6,752 nucleotides of DNA. It comes from Reyranella sp. (GTDB lineage: Bacteria; Pseudomonadota; Alphaproteobacteria; Reyranellales; Reyranellaceae). The position numbers and the translations under genes are program-made. This document shows, in pieces, positions 2-6,752 of this stretch. Under the pieces are notes generated by a model. The model was not told the DNA's origin, did no database searches, and saw only the letters and a program-made list of their open reading frames with translations. The stretch covers positions 1 to 6,752 of the forward strand of contig SCVT01000446.1 in the NCBI GenBank assembly GCA_004296815.1, given 5' to 3'. How positions within the stretch are numbered: position 1 is the stretch's first letter; every line of letters starts with the position of its first letter.

Positions 2-865
2 GCCGATCTCGACCTGTCGACCTGGCGGCATGCCGGCATCGGCGGCGACATGGTGCGCGCCGACGTGCTGGAGCGCTTCGCCGCGACGTTCGGCCCTTAC
101 GGCTTCGACGCCAAGGCGTTCATCCCGAGCTACGGCATGGCCGAGGTTTGCCTCGCCATCACCTTCTGCCCGCACGGCACCGGCGTGCGCACCGACGCGA
201 TCGACCGCACGGCGCTTGCCGAGGTGCAGAAGGCGGTGCCGGCCGCCGATCCGTCGGACAATCATCGCGCCCGCCGCTTCGTCGTGTGCGGCCGCGTGCT
301 GCCCGGCCATCGCCTGGAAGTGCGCGACCCCGCCGGCAAGGTGCTGGCCGACCGCGCCGTCGGCCGCATCTTCGTACAGGGCCCCAGCATCATGCCGGGC
401 TACTTCGGCGAGCCCGAGGCCAGCCGCGAGGTCCTGTCGGCCGACGGTTGGCTCGATACCGGCGACCTCGGCTACATGCTGGACGGCGAGGTGATCGTCA
501 CCGGCCGCGCCAAGGACCTGATCATCGTCAACGGCCGCAACGTCTGGCCGCAGGACATCGAATGGGCGGTCGAGGCCAAGCGCCTGGTGAAGAACGGCGA
601 CGCCGCTGCCTTCTCGATCGACACCGGCGAGGGCGAGCGCGTCGTGGTCGCCGTGCTGGCGCGCGTGTCGGGCGAAGAGGCGCGGGCTGCCTTGGCGCGC
701 GATGTGGCCGGCGCCGTCCGCGAATCGATCGCTGTCGACTGCGATGTGGCGCTGGTGCCGCCGACGGTCGGCCTGCCGACCACCTCCTCGGGCAAGCTCT
801 CTCGCGCGCGCACCAAGGCCAACTATCTCGCCGGCCTCTACGCGCCCAAGCCCGCCGCGGCCTGA
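2..865 (+). CDS. aasR: Fatty acyl-AMP ligase / acyl-ACP synthetase, C-terminal part (5' end cut by window)
   Basis: An open frame enters from the left edge (first whole codon at 2) and ends at TGA 863-865, giving 287 residues of an adenylate-forming enzyme; about the first half is outside the window. In fragment numbering the motifs are: AGIGGD near 11-16, SYGMAE at 43-48, the acid-containing WLDTGDLGY at 150-158, hinge GRAKDLII at 168-175, NGRNVWPQDIE at 177-187, and the C-terminal lysine in TSSGKLSR (Lys265), which normally completes adenylate formation. The spacing between YGMAE and CGRVLPG, and the GRNxxPQDIE signature, are typical of fatty acyl-AMP ligases, which pass acyl-AMP to an ACP rather than to CoA. 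By context it probably charges the ACP encoded at 1895-2215, as the Caulobacter sphingolipid acyl-ACP synthetase does. The next gene starts 9 bp downstream. Family assignment is firm; the exact partner and the symbol are inferred from context. A CoA ligase is the alternative. Confidence 0.88.
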   Translation, partial: ADLDLSTWRHAGIGGDMVRADVLERFAATFGPYGFDAKAFIPSYGMAEVCLAITFCPHGTGVRTDAIDRTALAEVQKAVPAADPSDNHRARRFVVCGRVLPGHRLEVRDPAGKVLADRAVGRIFVQGPSIMPGYFGEPEASREVLSADGWLDTGDLGYMLDGEVIVTGRAKDLIIVNGRNVWPQDIEWAVEAKRLVKNGDAAAFSIDTGEGERVVVAVLARVSGEEARAALARDVAGAVRESIAVDCDVALVPPTVGLPTTSSGKLSRARTKANYLAGLYAPKPAAA

Positions 866-874
866 GCCATCGCC

Positions 875-1801
875 GTGAGCAAGCTGGTCGCCGTCACGGG
901 TGCCACCGGCTTCGTCGGCACCCATCTCGTCGCCGCCCTCGCGCGCCGCGGCTTCCGCCTGCGTCTGCTGGTGCGGCGCTGGTCGCCGCTGCCGTCTCTG
1001 TCGGCGGTCGATGCCGAGCTGGTGCTGGGCGACGTGACGTCGGAGACGGCACTCCGCCGGCTGGTCGACGGCGCCGACGCGGTCGTCCATGCCGCGGGCC
1101 TCATCAAGGCCCGCTCGCCGGCCGACTTCCTGCCGGTGAACAGGGACAGCGCGGCGTTGCTCTCGGCGCTGGCGCCTGATGCGCACCTCGTCCTTCTCTC
1201 CTCGCTGGCGGCGCGCGAGCCGCAGCTTTCGGGCTACGGCGCCAGCAAGCGGGCGGGGGAGGCGGTCGTCGCCGTCCGCAGCGGGCCTTGGGCGATCGTC
1301 CGGGCGCCGGCGGTCTACGGGCCGGGCGACCGCGAGACGCTGGCCTACTTCCGGGCCGTGAAGTCGGGCCTGGCGGCCGAACCGCGGGTCGCCGGGGCCA
1401 GGCTCTCGCTGATCCACGTCGCCGACCTCGCTGAGGCGCTGGCGTCGGTCGTCGAACGTCCGCCGGAAAACGGGACCTACGAGATCGATGACGGAAACGA
1501 GGCGGCGTACGCCTACGCCGACATGGCCGCCGCTGCCGGGGAGGCGCTCGAGCGTCGGCCATGGCGGGTCCGCATCCCGAGACGGGTCATGGCGGCCGTG
1601 GCCGGATGGAATGCCGTTCGCCAATCGCTGGGCGGTCCGACCCAAATCCTGACCGCCGGCAAGGTGGCCGAGATCTTCCATCCCGACTGGTCGGTACATG
1701 ATCGCCGGCTGGCTGCAGCGATCGGCCACGAGTCTCGTTATGACCTGCCGGCCGGCTTCCGGGACACGATCTTGTGGTACCGGGGCCAAGGCTGGCTCTA
1801 G
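875..1801 (+). CDS. cerR: NAD(P)-dependent extended SDR (epimerase/dehydratase family), probable ceramide reductase
   Basis: 308 residues, starting at GTG 875 and ending at TAG 1799-1801. The protein opens directly with a Rossmann beta strand and the nucleotide-binding motif TGATGFVG (residues 8-15). It has the expected acidic residue in LGDVT (51-55), the NAD-binding HAAG (72-75), serines at 109-110 and the catalytic pair Tyr121/Lys125 in YGASK, followed by RAPAVYGPGD (143-152), a standard extended-SDR element. The set is complete, so it should be an active oxidoreductase. In Caulobacter a protein of this family in the spt cluster (CerR) reduces the keto group of the sphingoid base or ceramide; position between the acyl-AMP ligase and the ACP/spt genes supports the same role here. 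I see no good Shine-Dalgarno before the GTG; the 9-bp gap suggests translational coupling to the preceding gene. The start fits because no residues precede the Rossmann fold. A generic nucleotide-sugar epimerase is the less likely alternative. Confidence 0.82.
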   Translation: MSKLVAVTGATGFVGTHLVAALARRGFRLRLLVRRWSPLPSLSAVDAELVLGDVTSETALRRLVDGADAVVHAAGLIKARSPADFLPVNRDSAALLSALAPDAHLVLLSSLAAREPQLSGYGASKRAGEAVVAVRSGPWAIVRAPAVYGPGDRETLAYFRAVKSGLAAEPRVAGARLSLIHVADLAEALASVVERPPENGTYEIDDGNEAAYAYADMAAAAGEALERRPWRVRIPRRVMAAVAGWNAVRQSLGGPTQILTAGKVAEIFHPDWSVHDRRLAAAIGHESRYDLPAGFRDTILWYRGQGWL

Positions 1802-1805
1802 GACG

Positions 1806-1839
1806 TGTGAAATACAGCGTAACAATTTGTTATTTCACA
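1806..1839. promoter_or_regulatory. Overlapping inverted repeats, possible operator in the promoter region of the acp-spt operon
   Basis: In the only sizeable gap of the window there is a perfect 9-bp inverted repeat, TGTGAAATA (1806-1814) and TATTTCACA (1831-1839). A second palindrome, TAACAATTTGTTA (1820-1832), is 6+6 bp around a central T. The two share bases 1831-1832 and have different centres (about 1822.5 and 1826). The block is AT-rich in a very GC-rich background and is not followed by a T run, so an operator fits better than an intrinsic terminator. I could not place convincing -35 and -10 boxes. The identity of any binding protein is unknown. Confidence 0.5.
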
Positions 1840-1884
1840 TGGATTCAACGTTTCGGCACAACTTTCCCGCCTGACCCCGGGACC

Positions 1885-1890
1885 GGAGAG
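1885..1890 (+). promoter_or_regulatory. Ribosome binding site favouring the TTG start of the ACP gene
   Basis: GGAGAG lies 4 bases before TTG 1895. It is the best Shine-Dalgarno sequence at any gene start in the window. It is too far (22 bases) from the in-frame ATG at 1913, and the ATG at 1934 has no comparable site. Confidence 0.5.
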
Positions 1891-1894
1891 CGTT

Positions 1895-2215
1895 TTGCGC
1901 ACTGCCCATCAAATGATCGTCGAAAACGACGGCATGACCGACACCATCGACCTGCGCCGCGAGAGCACCCTCGCGCGCGGAGAGGTCATGGGCGAGATTT
2001 GCCATCACCTGCTGCCGTACCAGACGGGCGAGAAGCCGATCGTCGGTGACACGGTGATCGCCAAGGACCTGACCATCGACTCGCTGGCGATCATGGACAT
2101 GGTCATGGAGCTCGAGGATCGTTTCGACATCTCGATCCCCATGAACGTCGTGGCCGAGATCCACACCGTCGACCAGCTCGCGGACACCATCCTGAAGTTG
2201 CACGCCCGGCGTTAG
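1895..2215 (+). CDS. acpR: Acyl carrier protein dedicated to sphingolipid synthesis
   Basis: 106 residues from TTG 1895 to TAG 2213-2215. The phosphopantetheine attachment site is Ser63 in TIDSLAIMDMVMELEDRF, followed by helix-II-like acidic residues and an ISIPMNVVAEIHTVDQLADTI segment typical of helix III and the C-terminal helix of acyl carrier proteins. It would be modified to the holo form by a phosphopantetheinyl transferase encoded elsewhere. It starts 93 bp after the SDR stop and ends 2 bp before spt, so the two are almost certainly co-translated and the ACP probably delivers the fatty acyl group to Spt. Start choice is uncertain: TTG 1895 has a good ribosome site, while ATG 1913 (100 residues) and ATG 1934 (93 residues, closer to normal ACP length) are in frame but lack one. 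The N-terminal tail before the first ACP helix (near residue 28) looks unstructured under any choice. Identity as an ACP is secure; the symbol rests on context. Confidence 0.88.
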   Translation: MRTAHQMIVENDGMTDTIDLRRESTLARGEVMGEICHHLLPYQTGEKPIVGDTVIAKDLTIDSLAIMDMVMELEDRFDISIPMNVVAEIHTVDQLADTILKLHARR

Positions 2216-2217
2216 CC

Positions 2218-3444
2218 ATGGGCCTGTTCGATCGGCATGCGGGCCTCCTCGAGGCCTACCGGGACGTTCGGACTACCGGTTACGACCCGTTCCAGATCCG
2301 CATGGAGCGGGTCTTGTCGCCCACCGAAGCGATCATCAACGGCAAGAAGACGCTGCTGGTGGGCACCAACAACTATTTCGGCCTGACCTTCGACGAGAGC
2401 TGCAAGGAAGCGGCGATCGAGGCGATCCGCGCCGAGGGCACCGGCACGACCGGCTCGCGCATCGCCAACGGCAGCTACAACGAGCACGTGGCGCTGGAGC
2501 AGGAGATTGCCGAGTTCTACGGCAAGAAGCACTGCATGGTCTTCACGACCGGCTACCAGGCCAACCTGGGGGTGATCTCGACGCTCGCCGGCGAAGGCGA
2601 CTTCCTGCTGATCGACGCCGACAGCCACGCCTCGATCTACGACGCCTGCAAGATGACCCAGGCCGAGGTCGTGCGCTTCAAGCACAACGACCCGTCGAGC
2701 CTCGATGCCCGCCTGCGCCGCCTGGGCGACCGGCCGGGCAACCGTGTCGTGGTCCTCGAAGGCATCTATTCGATGCTGGGCGACAGCGCGCCGCTGCGCG
2801 AGTTCGTCGACGTCTGCAAGAAGTACGGCGCCTACGTGCTGATCGACGAGGCGCACTCGCTGGGCGCGCTGGGCGAGACCGGCCGCGGCCTCTGCGAGTC
2901 CACGGGCGTGCTCGACGACTGCCACTTCATCGTCGGCACCTTCTCCAAGACGCTGGGCGCCATCGGCGGCTATTGCGTGTCGGACGATCCGGACTTCGAC
3001 ATCCTGCGCGTCACGGTCCGCTCCTACATGTTCACCGCCTCGCTGCCGCCCTCGATCGTTGCGTCGGTGCGCCAGGCGCTACGCGTCGTGAAGGCGAAGC
3101 CGGAGCTGCGCAAGCAGCTCTGGGACAATGTCGCCACGCTCTATGACGGCCTCGCGGCCAAGGGCTTCAAGCTGGGGCCCGAGCATGGCCCGGTCGTGGG
3201 CGTCCATCTGCCCGACCGCATGCTCGCTATCGGCTTCTGGCGCGCCATGCTCGATGCCGGCATCTACGTGAACGTCGCCGTGCCGCCAGCCACGCCGAAT
3301 GGCGTGTCGCTGCTGCGCTGCTCGGTCTGCGCCGTGCACACCGCCGAGCAGCTCGAGCACATGATCGAGGTCATGACCGGCATCGGCCGCCAGCTCGGCG
3401 TGCTCGGCGATCCGAAGCTCCGCGTCGTTGGCGGCACGCGCTAG
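2218..3444 (+). CDS. spt: Serine palmitoyltransferase (PLP-dependent alpha-oxoamine synthase)
   Basis: 408 residues, ATG 2218 to TAG 3442-3444, about the length of soluble bacterial serine palmitoyltransferases. It catalyses the committed step of sphingolipid synthesis, decarboxylative condensation of L-serine with an acyl thioester to 3-ketosphinganine, in the cytoplasm as a homodimer. Visible features are NNYFGLT (51-57), GTGTTGSRIANG (74-85), His137 in DADSHAS (stacks on PLP), Asp210 and His213 in LIDEAHSLG, and the Schiff-base Lys244 in GTFSKTLGAIGGY. The C-terminal PPATPNGVSLLRCS (356-369) contains Arg367, matching the substrate-carboxylate arginine region of Spt. The PPATP-LLRCS signature separates it from 8-amino-7-oxononanoate synthase, 2-amino-3-ketobutyrate CoA ligase and 5-aminolevulinate synthase. 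No N-terminal membrane segment is seen. The gene starts 2 bp after the ACP stop with no clear Shine-Dalgarno, implying translational coupling. The adjacent ACP suggests acyl-ACP rather than acyl-CoA as donor. Confidence 0.93.
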   Translation: MGLFDRHAGLLEAYRDVRTTGYDPFQIRMERVLSPTEAIINGKKTLLVGTNNYFGLTFDESCKEAAIEAIRAEGTGTTGSRIANGSYNEHVALEQEIAEFYGKKHCMVFTTGYQANLGVISTLAGEGDFLLIDADSHASIYDACKMTQAEVVRFKHNDPSSLDARLRRLGDRPGNRVVVLEGIYSMLGDSAPLREFVDVCKKYGAYVLIDEAHSLGALGETGRGLCESTGVLDDCHFIVGTFSKTLGAIGGYCVSDDPDFDILRVTVRSYMFTASLPPSIVASVRQALRVVKAKPELRKQLWDNVATLYDGLAAKGFKLGPEHGPVVGVHLPDRMLAIGFWRAMLDAGIYVNVAVPPATPNGVSLLRCSVCAVHTAEQLEHMIEVMTGIGRQLGVLGDPKLRVVGGTR

Positions 3445-3455
3445 GCGCGGGCCCC

Positions 3456-4376
3456 ATGTTCACCCTCGCTCATCTCTCCGATCCGCATCTGCCGATGCCG
3501 CAGGCGCGCGTCGGCCAGCTGCTCGGCAAGCGCGTCACCGGCTACGTGAACTGGTGGCGCAACCGGGCCGACCTGCACCGGCCTGAGGCGCTGGCGGGCC
3601 TGGTGGCCGACATCAAGACGCAGAAGCCCGACCACATCGCGCTGACCGGCGACCTGGTGAACATCTCGCTGCCGGACGAGTTCGCGCGCGCCTCGGCCTG
3701 GCTCTCCGAATTCGGCAAGCCCGAGGACATCACCGTCATCCCCGGCAACCACGACGTCTATGTCGCCACGAAGTGGGGCGAGGGGCTCGGCCTCTGGGGT
3801 GCCTACATGGCGGGCGACGGCAAGCCGCCGGCCGCCGATTTCGCGATCTTCCCGACCGTGCGCCGCCGCGGCCCGGTCGCGCTGGTCGGGCTGAACAGCG
3901 GCGTGCCCAAGCCGCCCTTGTTCGCGACGGGCACGCTGGGCGAGCAGCAGATCGCCGAGACGGAAAAGCTGCTGGCCGAGCTCGGTCGCGAGGGCCTGTG
4001 CCGGGTCGTCCTGATCCATCACCCGCCGCTCACTACCGAGAAGCATTTCAAGCGCCTGACTGATGCCGCCGCCTTCCAGGCGATGATCCGGCGCGTGGGC
4101 TGCGAGATCGTCCTGCACGGCCACAACCATCGCAGCGAAGTGGCGCAGATCGCAGGCCCAATCGGGTCCATCCCCGTCGTCGGCGTGACGTCGGCCTCGG
4201 CGGCGCCCGGCAGCAAGTACGGCCGCGCGCGCTACCACTTGCTCGGCATCGAGCGCGAAGGCGCAGGGTGGCGCATCGCCGTCGATATCCGCGCGCTCAA
4301 GGCAGATGGCAGCGGTTGTGAACCAGATGGTCGCATCGTGTTCCGCAGCGATGCGACCGTCCGCATGGTAGCCTGA
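3456..4376 (+). CDS. Calcineurin-like metallophosphoesterase of unknown substrate
   Basis: 306 residues, ATG 3456 to TGA 4374-4376. The full dinuclear metal-site set of the calcineurin-like superfamily is present in order: SDPHL (Asp9, His11), LTGDLVN (Asp66), PGNHD (Asn98, His99), LIHHPP (His188) and LHGHNH (His221, His223). The enzyme should therefore hydrolyse a phosphomono- or phosphodiester. No signal peptide or membrane segment is apparent, so it probably acts in the cytoplasm or at the inner membrane surface. Residues 20-45 (TGYVNWWRN and around) are basic and aromatic and could touch a membrane or lipid. It starts 11 bp after spt and ends 4 bp before the bcerS-like gene, so it is embedded among ceramide genes. 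LpxH, a lipid A pathway UDP-diacylglucosamine hydrolase, is a precedent for a lipid-acting member; cyclic-nucleotide phosphodiesterases (CpdA type) are another branch. A role on a phosphosphingolipid is inference only. No gene symbol is justified. Confidence 0.85.
   Translation: MFTLAHLSDPHLPMPQARVGQLLGKRVTGYVNWWRNRADLHRPEALAGLVADIKTQKPDHIALTGDLVNISLPDEFARASAWLSEFGKPEDITVIPGNHDVYVATKWGEGLGLWGAYMAGDGKPPAADFAIFPTVRRRGPVALVGLNSGVPKPPLFATGTLGEQQIAETEKLLAELGREGLCRVVLIHHPPLTTEKHFKRLTDAAAFQAMIRRVGCEIVLHGHNHRSEVAQIAGPIGSIPVVGVTSASAAPGSKYGRARYHLLGIEREGAGWRIAVDIRALKADGSGCEPDGRIVFRSDATVRMVA
4326..4361 (+). other. Strong RNA hairpin at the 3' end of the phosphoesterase gene
   Basis: GGTCGCATCG (4329-4338) and CGATGCGACC (4349-4358) are perfect 10-base inverted repeats around a 10-base loop. 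The stem extends outward to 13 pairs (4326-4338 with 4349-4361) with one U-G wobble. It lies in the last codons of the metallophosphoesterase gene and ends 19 bases before the ATG at 4381. There is no following T run, so it is not a canonical intrinsic terminator. It may instead be an RNA processing, stabilising or translation-tuning element, or coincidence in GC-rich coding DNA. Confidence 0.45.
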
Positions 4377-4380
4377 GCGC

Positions 4381-5529
4381 ATGGCTTCCACCGACATCGT
4401 CGTCAGTCCGGTCGCGACCAAGGCCGATCTCAACGCCTTCATCGCGCTGCCCAAGCGGCTCTACGCCGGCCACAAGGGCTACACGCCGCATCTCGACGTC
4501 GAGCGGCGCGAGGCCTTCACGCCGGGCAAGAACCCGCTGTTCCACCATGTCGAGGTCCGGTTCTTCCTGGCTCGCCGCGGAGCCAAGGTCGTGGGCCGCA
4601 TCACCGCCCAGGTCGACAACGCCCATCTCGAACGCTACGCCGACGCCACCGGCCATTTCGGCTGCCTCGCTGCCGAGGATGATCCGGCGATCTTCACCGC
4701 TCTCTTCGCCGCCGCCGAAGCGTGGCTGCGTGAGAAGGGGATGAAGCGCGTGACCGGGCCGTTCAGCCTCTCGGTCAACGAGGAGGTCGGCCTCCTGATC
4801 CACGGCTTCGACGCCCGGCCCATGCTCATGGTGCCTTACGATCCGCCCTATGCCGGTGGCAGGGTCGAGGCCAACGGCTATGCCAAGGCGAAGGACGTCT
4901 TCTCCTACGACTACGATGTCCAGAACGCGCCGGAGACGATCGGCGCCAAGCTGATGGCACGCGCCGGCATGGCAGGCCGGGTCAAGGTCCGCAGCGCCAA
5001 CATGAAGATGTTCGACGCCGAGGTGCGGACCTTGGTCAATATCTTCAACGATGCCTGGAGCGACAATTGGGGCTTCGTTCCCTTCACCCAGGCCGAGATC
5101 GACCACGCCTCCAAGGCCTTCGGGCCGGTGATCGTGCCCGAGCTCGCGGTCTTCGTGGAGGTCGACGACGAGGCGGTGGCCTTCATCGTGGCGCTGACCA
5201 ACCTCAACGAGGCGACCGTCGATTTCGACGGCAAGCTCGGCCCCTGGAAGCTCGCGAAGCTGCTCACGCGCATGAAGCTGCTGGGCGTTGGCAGCACGCG
5301 CGTGCCGCTGATGGGCGTGCGCAAGAAATACCGCAACCACCCGCTGATGGGCGCCGGGCTCGCCATGATGGCGATCGACCAGCTCCGCCAGAACGGCAAG
5401 CGGCTGGGCAAGACCACGGCCGAGCTGGGCTGGATCCTCGAGGACAACAAGGCGACCAACAACATCATCCGTTCGGTCGGCGGGGTGCACTACAAGACGC
5501 ACCGCATCTACGAGAAGTCGCTGGGGTGA
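4381..5529 (+). CDS. bcerS: GNAT-type N-acyltransferase, probable bacterial ceramide synthase
   Basis: 382 residues, ATG 4381 to TGA 5527-5529. The protein looks like two GNAT-like halves. Residues 1-180 include VGRITAQVDN (71-80), AEAWLREKGMKRVTGPFSLS (112-131), a GLLIHGFD segment (137-144) and YDPPY (153-157). Residues 200-382 carry an acyl-donor-binding-like loop, GVRKKYRNHPLMGAGLA (312-328), then ELGWILEDNKATNNIIRSVGG (348-368) and YKTHRIYEK (371-379), the usual C-terminal GNAT pattern. This architecture and length match the bacterial ceramide synthase family described in Caulobacter (bCerS), which N-acylates the sphingoid base and is unrelated to the membrane-embedded eukaryotic ceramide synthases. 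No membrane helix is evident. It starts 4 bp after the phosphoesterase stop and its TGA overlaps the GTG of the next gene. The location two genes from spt strongly supports the role. Which acyl donor it uses (CoA or ACP) cannot be read from sequence. Without context it would only be called a GNAT-domain protein. Confidence 0.82.
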   Translation: MASTDIVVSPVATKADLNAFIALPKRLYAGHKGYTPHLDVERREAFTPGKNPLFHHVEVRFFLARRGAKVVGRITAQVDNAHLERYADATGHFGCLAAEDDPAIFTALFAAAEAWLREKGMKRVTGPFSLSVNEEVGLLIHGFDARPMLMVPYDPPYAGGRVEANGYAKAKDVFSYDYDVQNAPETIGAKLMARAGMAGRVKVRSANMKMFDAEVRTLVNIFNDAWSDNWGFVPFTQAEIDHASKAFGPVIVPELAVFVEVDDEAVAFIVALTNLNEATVDFDGKLGPWKLAKLLTRMKLLGVGSTRVPLMGVRKKYRNHPLMGAGLAMMAIDQLRQNGKRLGKTTAELGWILEDNKATNNIIRSVGGVHYKTHRIYEKSLG

Positions 5530-6752
5530 ACGCGCCGACGTCATCGGCGTTCGCACCGCTCGCCAACCGGTCGTTCCGGGCGATGTGGATCGCCAACCTG
5601 ATGTCGAACATCGGCGGCTGGATGGCGACCACGGGTGCCGCCTGGGAGATGACCAGCCTCACCCAGGAGCCGATCTTCGTGGCCCTGCTGGCGGCCGCCG
5701 GCACGCTGCCGATGTTCCTGTTCTGCTTCTTCGCCGGCATCCTGGCCGACCGCTTCGACCGCCGCCGCTACATCATCGTCTGCCAGTTCTGGATGATCGC
5801 CGTGGCCACGACGCTGGCGGTGCTGGCCTTCCTGGGCAGGCTCGACCACTGGAGCCTATTGGCGCTCTCCTTCTGCATGGGGCTGGGCAACGCCATGAAC
5901 GCCCCGGCCTGGCATGCCGTGGTGCCGGAGATCGTCACGGGCCCGCAGCTCCGGCCGGCCATCGCGCTGAACAGTGCGGGCTTCAACCTCGCCCGCACCA
6001 TCGGCCCGGTCATCGGCCAGCTGCTGCTCAGCTTGGTGGGCGTGTTCCTGCTGTTCGCCATCAATGCGCTCACCTACGTGGGCGTGGTCTTCGCCATGCG
6101 CGCCTGGAAGCGCCCTGCGGAGGCCCGCGCCTCCCAGCGCCGCGAGGGCTTCGCCGAGGCCGCCCGGGCGGGCATCGCCTTCGTCCGCGGCTCGGCCGAG
6201 CTCCGGGCGATCTTCGCCCGCGGTCTCTGTTTCTTCGTCCCGGCCATCGCCATGGGCACGCTCCTGCCGGTGATCGGGCGCTTCGAGCTGGGCCTCGACG
6301 AGTTCGACTTCGGCATCCTCTACGGCGTGTTCGGCGTCGGCGCGGTGGCGGCAGCTTTCTCGATGCCGACCGTCAACCGCCTGCTGGGCGCCGACCGCGC
6401 CAACATCTGGGCCATGGGCATATCGGCCGCGACCACGATGGTGGCGGCGCTGGCGATGACGCCGCTGGTGGTGGGCGCCGTGGTCGCCATCAACGGCGCC
6501 TGCTGGATCACCGTCATCGCCAACAACGGCGCCTCGGTTCAGATGATCCTGCCCAACTACATGCGGGCTCGTGGCATGGCGGTCCACCAGATGGTGTTTT
6601 TCGGCGCCATGGTGGCGGGCTCGCTTCTGTGGGGGAAGGTCGCCAATTTCTTCGACGTGCGCACCGCGCTCGTCGCCTCGGCCGTCGCGTTGGTGCCGCT
6701 CACCGTGCTCGCGGCGTCGATCAAGCTCCCGGGCTCGCCGCTGCCAAGAGTC
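5526..6752 (+). CDS. MFS transporter (EntS-like / MFS_3 group), 3' end cut by window
   Basis: The frame opens at GTG 5526, which overlaps the preceding TGA (GTGA), and stays open to the right edge: 409 codons with no stop. The product is strongly hydrophobic, with helices at roughly 19-42, 49-73, 83-103, 109-130, 150-190, 232-252, 262-284, 295-331 and 353-399. Family marks are the loop 2-3 motif GILADRFDRRR (71-81), NAPAWHAVVPEIV (125-137) and NSAGFNLARTIGP (149-161). These are typical of the MFS group that includes enterobactin exporter EntS and many uncharacterised permeases; it should sit in the inner membrane. An in-frame ATG at 5583 would start inside the first helix region and drop the N-terminal ANRSFRAM stretch common in this family, so GTG 5526 is preferred. 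The overlap implies translational coupling to the bcerS-like gene. The substrate is unknown; a link to sphingolipid export is only contextual, and it may simply be the operon's last, unrelated gene. Confidence 0.85.
   Translation, partial: MNAPTSSAFAPLANRSFRAMWIANLMSNIGGWMATTGAAWEMTSLTQEPIFVALLAAAGTLPMFLFCFFAGILADRFDRRRYIIVCQFWMIAVATTLAVLAFLGRLDHWSLLALSFCMGLGNAMNAPAWHAVVPEIVTGPQLRPAIALNSAGFNLARTIGPVIGQLLLSLVGVFLLFAINALTYVGVVFAMRAWKRPAEARASQRREGFAEAARAGIAFVRGSAELRAIFARGLCFFVPAIAMGTLLPVIGRFELGLDEFDFGILYGVFGVGAVAAAFSMPTVNRLLGADRANIWAMGISAATTMVAALAMTPLVVGAVVAINGACWITVIANNGASVQMILPNYMRARGMAVHQMVFFGAMVAGSLLWGKVANFFDVRTALVASAVALVPLTVLAASIKLPGSPLPRV

Follow-up and report, generated by a model that had tools for sequence, protein, structure and literature searches.

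A compact, co-directional gene set predicted to make ceramide in a Reyranella genus mostly without lipid A and lipopolysaccharide-export markers

Does the bacterium behind a short Reyranella contig make ceramides, and could such lipids take the place of lipopolysaccharide (LPS) in its outer membrane? The window analysed here is the whole contig SCVT01000446.1 of Reyranella sp. (C301 in our collection; 6752 nt), which belongs to a fragmented metagenome-assembled genome (MAG; 770 contigs, 89% complete). The ceramide reading of its genes is well supported by protein families, motifs and gene order. The co-directional set is predicted to make (dihydro)ceramide, likely an outer-membrane lipid that replaces LPS in a genus mostly without lipid A and LPS-export markers; we assign this reading a probability of about 0.78. 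The six genes in question are the following.

2..865, + strand: AasR-like fatty acyl-AMP ligase / acyl-[acyl carrier protein] (acyl-ACP) synthetase, C-terminal 287 aa, start outside the contig (PF00501, 52.8 bits)
875..1801, + strand: CerR-like NAD-dependent short-chain dehydrogenase/reductase (SDR) of the epimerase type, predicted 3-keto reductase (PF01370, 74.3 bits)
1895..2215, + strand: AcpR-like ACP (PF00550, 37.1 bits; DSL at residue 62)
2218..3444, + strand: predicted serine palmitoyltransferase, Spt (NF047599, 649.8 bits against a cut-off of 500)
3456..4376, + strand: calcineurin-like metallophosphoesterase (PF00149, 49.6 bits)
4381..5529, + strand: bCerS-like tandem-GNAT N-acyltransferase, predicted ceramide synthase (homologues in genus and class, modelled fold, gene order)

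The window holds seven frames, all on the + strand, with gaps of 9, 93, 2, 11, 4 and −4 nt in order. A sequence-only reading had named five ceramide genes with visible catalytic motifs and had predicted that the organism makes ceramides. Open reading frame calls and profile searches placed all five within 2..5529, on the + strand and in the order given, and a script located motifs in the ACP, the SDR, Spt and the ligase; together with gene order, this family and motif evidence supports the prediction. The idea that one window contains the whole core pathway held for four genes, the ligase being only about half present. The closeness of bcerS to spt was confirmed, but the earlier gene list had omitted the complete metallophosphoesterase gene between them (3456-4376) and a major facilitator superfamily (MFS) gene (5526-6752) that shares 4 nt with the end of the GNAT gene and is truncated where the contig stops. 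The assignments to the five Caulobacter ceramide functions survived testing with the Spt equivalog, the cut-off for a relative's ligase, and the position and modelled fold of the GNAT protein. Best matches of the SDR and the GNAT protein to families outside CerR and bCerS had been named as an objection to look for; neither protein passed the cut-off of another curated NCBIfam family, and neither has a curated family to itself. Source names of the closest proteins include, among the matches listed, Reyranella sp., Reyranellaceae bacterium and Enhydrobacter aerosaccus.

Spt scored 650 bits with its equivalog versus 316 with BioF and stayed below the cut-offs of NF047603 (501 vs 670 bits) and NF047600 (345 vs 640 bits). 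Its best PDB matches, 2x8u, 2w8j and 2jg2, are all named serine palmitoyltransferase and align over most of its length. The motifs SHAS, DEAH and FSK align with identical letters in the solved Spts 2x8u and 2w8j; we take them to be the pyridoxal phosphate lysine and neighbouring catalytic residues. The window Spt is predicted to be a bacterial serine palmitoyltransferase that makes 3-ketosphinganine from serine.

The ligase half carries the motifs GRAKD and SSGK, found by script, and matched the fatty acyl-AMP ligase profile NF006624 over positions 290-565 with 385 bits against a cut-off of 600; the full-length ligase of a relative (L076, 584 aa) passed the same cut-off with 755 bits. A ligase of this family, half a gene in the window, stands with a separate DSL-bearing ACP, which marks an AasR/AcpR pair. 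The acpR start, a TTG codon with GGAGA upstream, was inferred. In the SDR the script found GATGFVG, LSSLA and YGASK, so that nucleotide-binding and YxxxK motifs occur in a gene between aasR and acpR, as expected of CerR; identity to the SDR encoded at the E. coli yghO locus is 32%. Its best PDB sequence match is an NAD-dependent epimerase/dehydratase (9g83 chain P, 52.5 bits), while CerR is said to resemble NDUFA9 (PMC11087976), and the CerR assignment therefore rests on gene neighbourhood. A periplasmic location was reported for Caulobacter CerR (PMC11087976). The nucleotide motif of the window SDR begins at residue 9, which leaves no visible N-terminal signal peptide.

The 382-aa GNAT-like protein had no Pfam or NCBIfam match, and PF00583 is precomputed on some relatives of a gammaproteobacterial GNAT homologue. 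The ten best PDB matches of its model (38-sequence alignment; mean predicted local distance difference test score, pLDDT, 93.6) were GNAT-type acetyltransferases (e.g., 7q3a, 5kf1), several titled tandem GNAT, with N-myristoyltransferases among the lower-ranked ones. This confident model points to a GNAT-type acyltransferase fold. Database names for the family are 'dATP pyrophosphohydrolase', 'N-acetyltransferase' and 'YghO'; the first was rejected, as no nucleotide-hydrolase domain was found and the modelled fold is tandem GNAT.

The identification as bCerS comes from gene position. In Caulobacter, spt is followed by CC_1161, the kinase CC_1160, CC_1159 (linked to CDP-alcohol chemistry), the phosphoesterase CC_1158 and CC_1157, then by LptF2, LptG2, CerS (CC_1154), the nucleotidyltransferase-like CC_1153 and CC_1152 (PMC11324152). 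No named Caulobacter sequence appeared among the best 80 of 537 loci of a contig scan centred on a Dongia-type genus, in 44 plasmid records, or among the 120 proteins listed from a search with a gammaproteobacterial homologue. In the loci compared here, labels such as LptF2-type denote the top BLAST match within a small set of query genes, and genes were called by a simple script, with misses and mislabels possible. The GNAT homologue has a comparable slot, behind a CDP-alcohol transferase, a phosphoesterase and LptF/LptG-type genes, in the Dongia-type loci L086, L087, L088, L110 and L111, in Hydrocarboniphaga (L126), in Roseomonas gilardii (L227) and in Rhodospirillales bacterium Bin_16_5 (L147). 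A kinase gene is also present in these loci except L147; some contain one or two extra genes, and in some the genes for the kinase and CDP chemistry face the opposite way. In Dongia L111, L147 and L227 the homologue precedes a nucleotidyltransferase, matching the CC_1160-CC_1153 numbering, although in L111 and L227 it is preceded by one or two additional genes. A position after LptF2-LptG2, before a CofC/MobA-like nucleotidyltransferase, or beside spt was found in L086-L089, L147, L227 and others, and near spt in the genus of the window. Because homologues occupy the published cerS position or adjoin spt in several lineages, the GNAT protein was taken as bCerS.

The window shares its five functions with aasR-cerR-acpR-spt (CC_1165-CC_1162) and cerS/bcerS (CC_1154) of Caulobacter crescentus; by gene number the first four genes stand in the same order, and bcerS lies in the same region. 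The two loci differ in compactness, with seven genes (CC_1161-CC_1155) between spt and cerS in Caulobacter and a single phosphoesterase gene in the window (PMC11324152). According to the same 2024 paper, cerS is 'always' in another operon than aasR-cerR-acpR-spt, including in Caulobacter, whereas the window bcerS lies close behind spt on the same strand (PMC11324152).

The arrangement was followed through the 38 genomes (G000-G036 and G393) that our genome collection assigns to the genus. Spt is present in 38/38 and bCerS in 37/38 (G026 ends inside spt). In 30 genomes, with starts placed by alignment, spt, the phosphoesterase gene and bcerS are spaced by 4-113 nt: 5-113 nt from spt to the phosphoesterase and 4-7 nt from there to bcerS. 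The latter gap is 4-7 nt in all 34 genus genomes measured. Among the remaining genomes, contigs end near the phosphoesterase (G019, G006) or inside spt (G026), and for G033 the view is limited to the 946 nt that separate spt from bcerS. The gene order, whose conservation the sequence-only reading had proposed as a check, thus recurs across the genus and is not due to chance. The 4-113 nt spacing speaks against the published 'always' as a rule; that statement is a generalisation in PMC11324152, not an enzyme property.

Two loci of other lineages (L091, L217) also carry aasR-cerR-acpR-spt and bCerS on one strand, with bcerS about 0.9-1.1 kb behind spt. Insertions between spt and the phosphoesterase gene were seen in L071, L082/L253, L251 and L254, two of them with genes that resemble HlyD-ABC-ABC2 transporters by eye.

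The metallophosphoesterase is retained in 36/38 genus genomes (G026 is cut; G033 was not measured). Residues D9, H11, D66, N98, H99, H188 and H223 are invariant in 31/31 aligned sequences, the window included, and H225 and D100 are conserved at ≥90%. A script found DxH, GDxxN, GNHD, H and GHxH, presumably the complete series of calcineurin-like metal-site blocks. The best PDB matches of the model (pLDDT 93.6) were Lmo2642, Rv0805 and GpdQ, with acid-sphingomyelinase-like enzymes and LpxH ranking lower, so the modelled fold is that of a phosphodiesterase or phosphatase. By gene position, the protein is likely the counterpart of Caulobacter CC_1158, with which it shares the phosphoesterase domain and, in clusters of the Dongia and Roseomonas types, an equivalent relative position. 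It differs in being kept in a genus where no ceramide-kinase homologue was found: a Dongia-type query for the CC_1160 type gave no match below E 1e-10 in the 38 genomes (five weak matches), and good matches in G222, of a sister genus, and in G037, of the same order. The role proposed for CC_1158 is the end step in the synthesis of ceramide-phosphoglycerate (CPG2), and the gene was reported missing from six other genomes (PMC11324152). If the two are counterparts by position, retention without the kinase suggests that the CPG2 end role is not the whole story.

From these genes we infer the following chemistry. AasR would load a fatty acid onto AcpR, and Spt would condense acyl-AcpR with serine to 3-ketosphinganine. 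bCerS would then add the amide-linked acyl chain and CerR would reduce the keto group, the order of these last two steps being disputed for Caulobacter (PMC11087976). For the phosphoesterase we predict a phosphoester substrate different from, or additional to, that of the ceramide-phosphoglycerate end step. Absence of LptF, LptG and head-group-type genes between the phosphoesterase gene and bcerS would leave the compact order.

Markers of LPS synthesis and export were nearly absent from the genus. LpxC was found in 1/38 genomes, LptD in 1/38, LpxB in 0/38 and LptF/G in 0/25 tested; Omp85 was present in 38/38. The single-contig genomes G015 (100% complete) and G021 (97%) had no LPS marker matches, and G010 was likewise negative. 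MAG incompleteness was rejected as the cause of the missing genes, as the two single-contig genomes were equally negative. In genomes of other families, two LptF/G matches were obtained in 14/15. LptD was present, with no LpxC or LpxB match, in the sister genus (G222) and in Dongia-type G074 and G299; all three have an LptF/G pair between the phosphoesterase gene and bcerS, and head-group-type genes stand beside LptF and LptG there. In G037 (81% complete), LptD and a kinase homologue were found but no LpxC, LpxB or LptF/G match. CDP-alcohol and nucleotidyl transferases are absent from the genus neighbourhood; of the head-group genes, the kinase was the one searched genome-wide. A further locus, L103 (genome G049), had no LpxC or LpxB match, and the two LptF/LptG matches that it gave are both placed between spt and bCerS, making this genome a good case for Lpt as a putative sphingolipid carrier.

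The same markers were compared in a class sample of 385 genomes, taken as one set across the bCerS, LpxC and LptD searches. LpxC was found in 328 genomes and LptD in 342. bCerS was counted at E < 1e-60, giving 50 genomes; a threshold of E 1e-3 gave 52, of which the weak rows G220 and G208 were left out. It occurred in 28/57 LpxC-negative versus 22/328 LpxC-positive genomes, in 24/38 LpxC-negative genomes that keep LptD versus 22/304 with both, and in 0/24 with LpxC but without LptD. Nineteen genomes lack both LpxC and LptD, and the four of these with bCerS are exactly the four members of this genus; seven of the other 15 have a printed size, all ≤1.7 Mb. Fisher values for this sample overstate the evidence, as kinship of the genomes was not corrected for.

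Taken by their distribution, the markers suggest that the genus likely has an LPS-free, ceramide-bearing outer membrane without an Lpt bridge. Loss of lipid A synthesis appears to be common to the genus and its relatives, and the Lpt bridge, the ceramide kinase and the neighbouring head-group-type genes appear to have been lost on its own line, so that the core ceramide genes and the phosphoesterase would remain.

Several observations weigh against this interpretation. The 93-nt cerR-acpR gap, which holds a conserved element, suggests two transcripts. The distance from spt to the phosphoesterase gene is 2.4, 5.5, 8.4 and about 9 kb in G007, G013, G012 and G002, respectively; the phosphoesterase-bcerS gap is still 4-7 nt in these genomes. 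CerR and the CC_1158 counterpart were assigned by neighbourhood and position, and bCerS from position, homologues and modelled fold. The order in Fodinicurvata (L161) is different: GNAT, transferase, phosphoesterase, LptF, LptG, kinase. The bCerS family is also broad, and membership is in itself no proof of ceramide synthase activity. Distant homologues lie on plasmids, at 24-26% identity in Bacteroides, Ensifer and Tunicatimonas and 37% in Streptomyces. The lone LpxC match in the genus comes from a 3-kb contig of a 75% complete MAG (G033:C681, L196) and the lone LptD match from a genome with 6% contamination (G012:C20, L236). Both are likely contaminants; the GC-content of their contigs (0.69 and 0.70, versus 0.63-0.71 in genus loci) does not decide on foreign origin. 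The weak bCerS row G208 (E 3.4e-4), dropped from the class count, also lacks LptD. Finally, LptF-type genes are still part of the cluster in Reyranella sp. CPCC 100927 (L120) and Vineibacter terrae (L159), whose bCerS proteins share 71% and 70% identity with that of the window, and the loss is therefore limited to the 38-genome genus and does not extend to all strains named Reyranella.

Among the alternatives, the one that survives best, although unlikely, is that ceramide is a minor or inner-membrane lipid and that the outer leaflet consists of phospholipid, hopanoid or a polysaccharide lipid; it overlaps the preferred reading and differs in location only. E. aerosaccus was cultivated for hopanoid work and is listed in a hopanoid composition table (PMC12583986), and no delivery route to the outer leaflet is known without the Lpt bridge. 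Against a minor role stand the near-universal presence of Spt and bCerS in the genus and the association of bCerS with LpxC loss in the class sample. Considerably less probable is an ordinary Caulobacter-type phosphosphingolipid producer, making both LPS and ceramide-phosphoglycerate, whose lpx, lpt and cpg genes would be too divergent or fragmented to find. The fragmented, incomplete window genome and the single LpxC and LptD matches would fit such a producer; however, the same searches detected LpxC, LptD and LptF/G in most genomes outside the genus, the sister G222 gave LptD and kinase matches, and neither single-contig genome had any of these markers. Least probable of all is a related N-acyl long-chain base other than ceramide proper (a 1-deoxy form or one built on another amino acid), since Spt is far closer to its equivalog than to BioF and most of its length can be aligned with solved Spts, even though Spt belongs to the alpha-oxoamine synthases, with many other activities, and the substrate choice of Spt and bCerS homologues is unreadable from sequence.

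The predicted ceramide producer of the window has partial parallels in other systems. The E. coli yghO locus (NZ_MG591698.1, L226, 2343-10122) also has an acyl-AMP ligase, an SDR, an ACP, an Spt-type aminotransferase (599.9 bits against the equivalog cut-off of 500) and YghO, a bCerS homologue (41%); it differs in that yghO is divergent from the other four genes, with lptF/lptG alongside. A capacity for ceramide synthesis is possible in E. coli strains that carry it. In sphingomonads, sphingolipids replace LPS (PMC11087976, PMC11324152). They have sphingolipid genes in common with the window, and on a Sphingomonas parapaucimobilis plasmid a bCerS homologue (36%) has a class I/II aminotransferase gene in its vicinity, with lptF and lptG between them, unlike the genus studied here, which has no LptF/G match. 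Sphingolipids of Alphaproteobacteria were described as apparently restricted to Sphingomonadales (PMC7179689), a restriction widened by later work (PMC11087976, PMC11334938). Among the open-access literature matches listed, none dealt with ceramides or an absence of LPS in Reyranella.

Two further features flank or divide the gene set.

1806..1839, + strand: conserved element in the cerR-acpR gap, a 9-nt inverted repeat TGTGAAATA/TATTTCACA around GTAACAATTTGTTA, candidate operator/promoter region
5526..6752, + strand: MFS transporter, truncated at the 3' end where the contig stops (PF05977, 378.5 bits), overlapping the bcerS stop by 4 nt

The core of the element, GTAACAAwTTGTyA, occurs in 36/37 aligned cerR-acpR gaps, sister genus included, 75-87 nt before the acpR start. 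There is one copy per locus in nearly all genus genomes; L147 also has one copy (1146-1159). The element may be the promoter or operator of acpR-spt-phosphoesterase-bcerS. A PHO box was considered for it and dropped, the half-site spacing being unlike that of the consensus. A sigma-70 scan gave 0 sites and a terminator scan 2 (2.4 in shuffles), neither informative.

The bcerS-MFS gap ranges from −10 to 172 nt in genus relatives. In the sister genus and G037, bcerS is followed by a transferase gene and the MFS gene comes only 0.9-1.8 kb after that, and in relatives (L069, L104, L105) it is followed after about 380-470 nt by ODC-like and homospermidine-synthase-like genes, named by eye. Given this distance and these neighbours, a role as sphingolipid flippase was not adopted; the MFS gene probably came next to bcerS through loss of intervening genes.

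Less ordinary than the ceramide genes themselves are the compactness of spt-phosphoesterase-bcerS and the missing lipid A and LPS-export markers. That the phosphoesterase is retained where the kinase was not found speaks against a role tied to CPG2 only. How bacterial sphingolipids travel to the outer membrane is described as unknown in PMC11324152, which suggests a second Lpt set; relatives without LpxC that keep LptD, and whose ceramide cluster includes LptF/G, suggest that sphingolipid is what Lpt still carries there. A more far-reaching picture, which we offer tentatively and with slightly more doubt than belief, is a two-membrane envelope with neither LPS nor an Lpt bridge, in which ceramide would reach the outer leaflet by a route independent of LptB2FGC-A-D. 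It would have arisen by stepwise loss, lipid A going first while Lpt was kept for sphingolipids, and then Lpt, the ceramide kinase and the head-group genes. A genus with predicted ceramide synthesis but without LpxC, LpxB, LptD and LptF/G would thus be a natural test: either its ceramides arrive in the outer membrane independently of Lpt, or they never arrive there.

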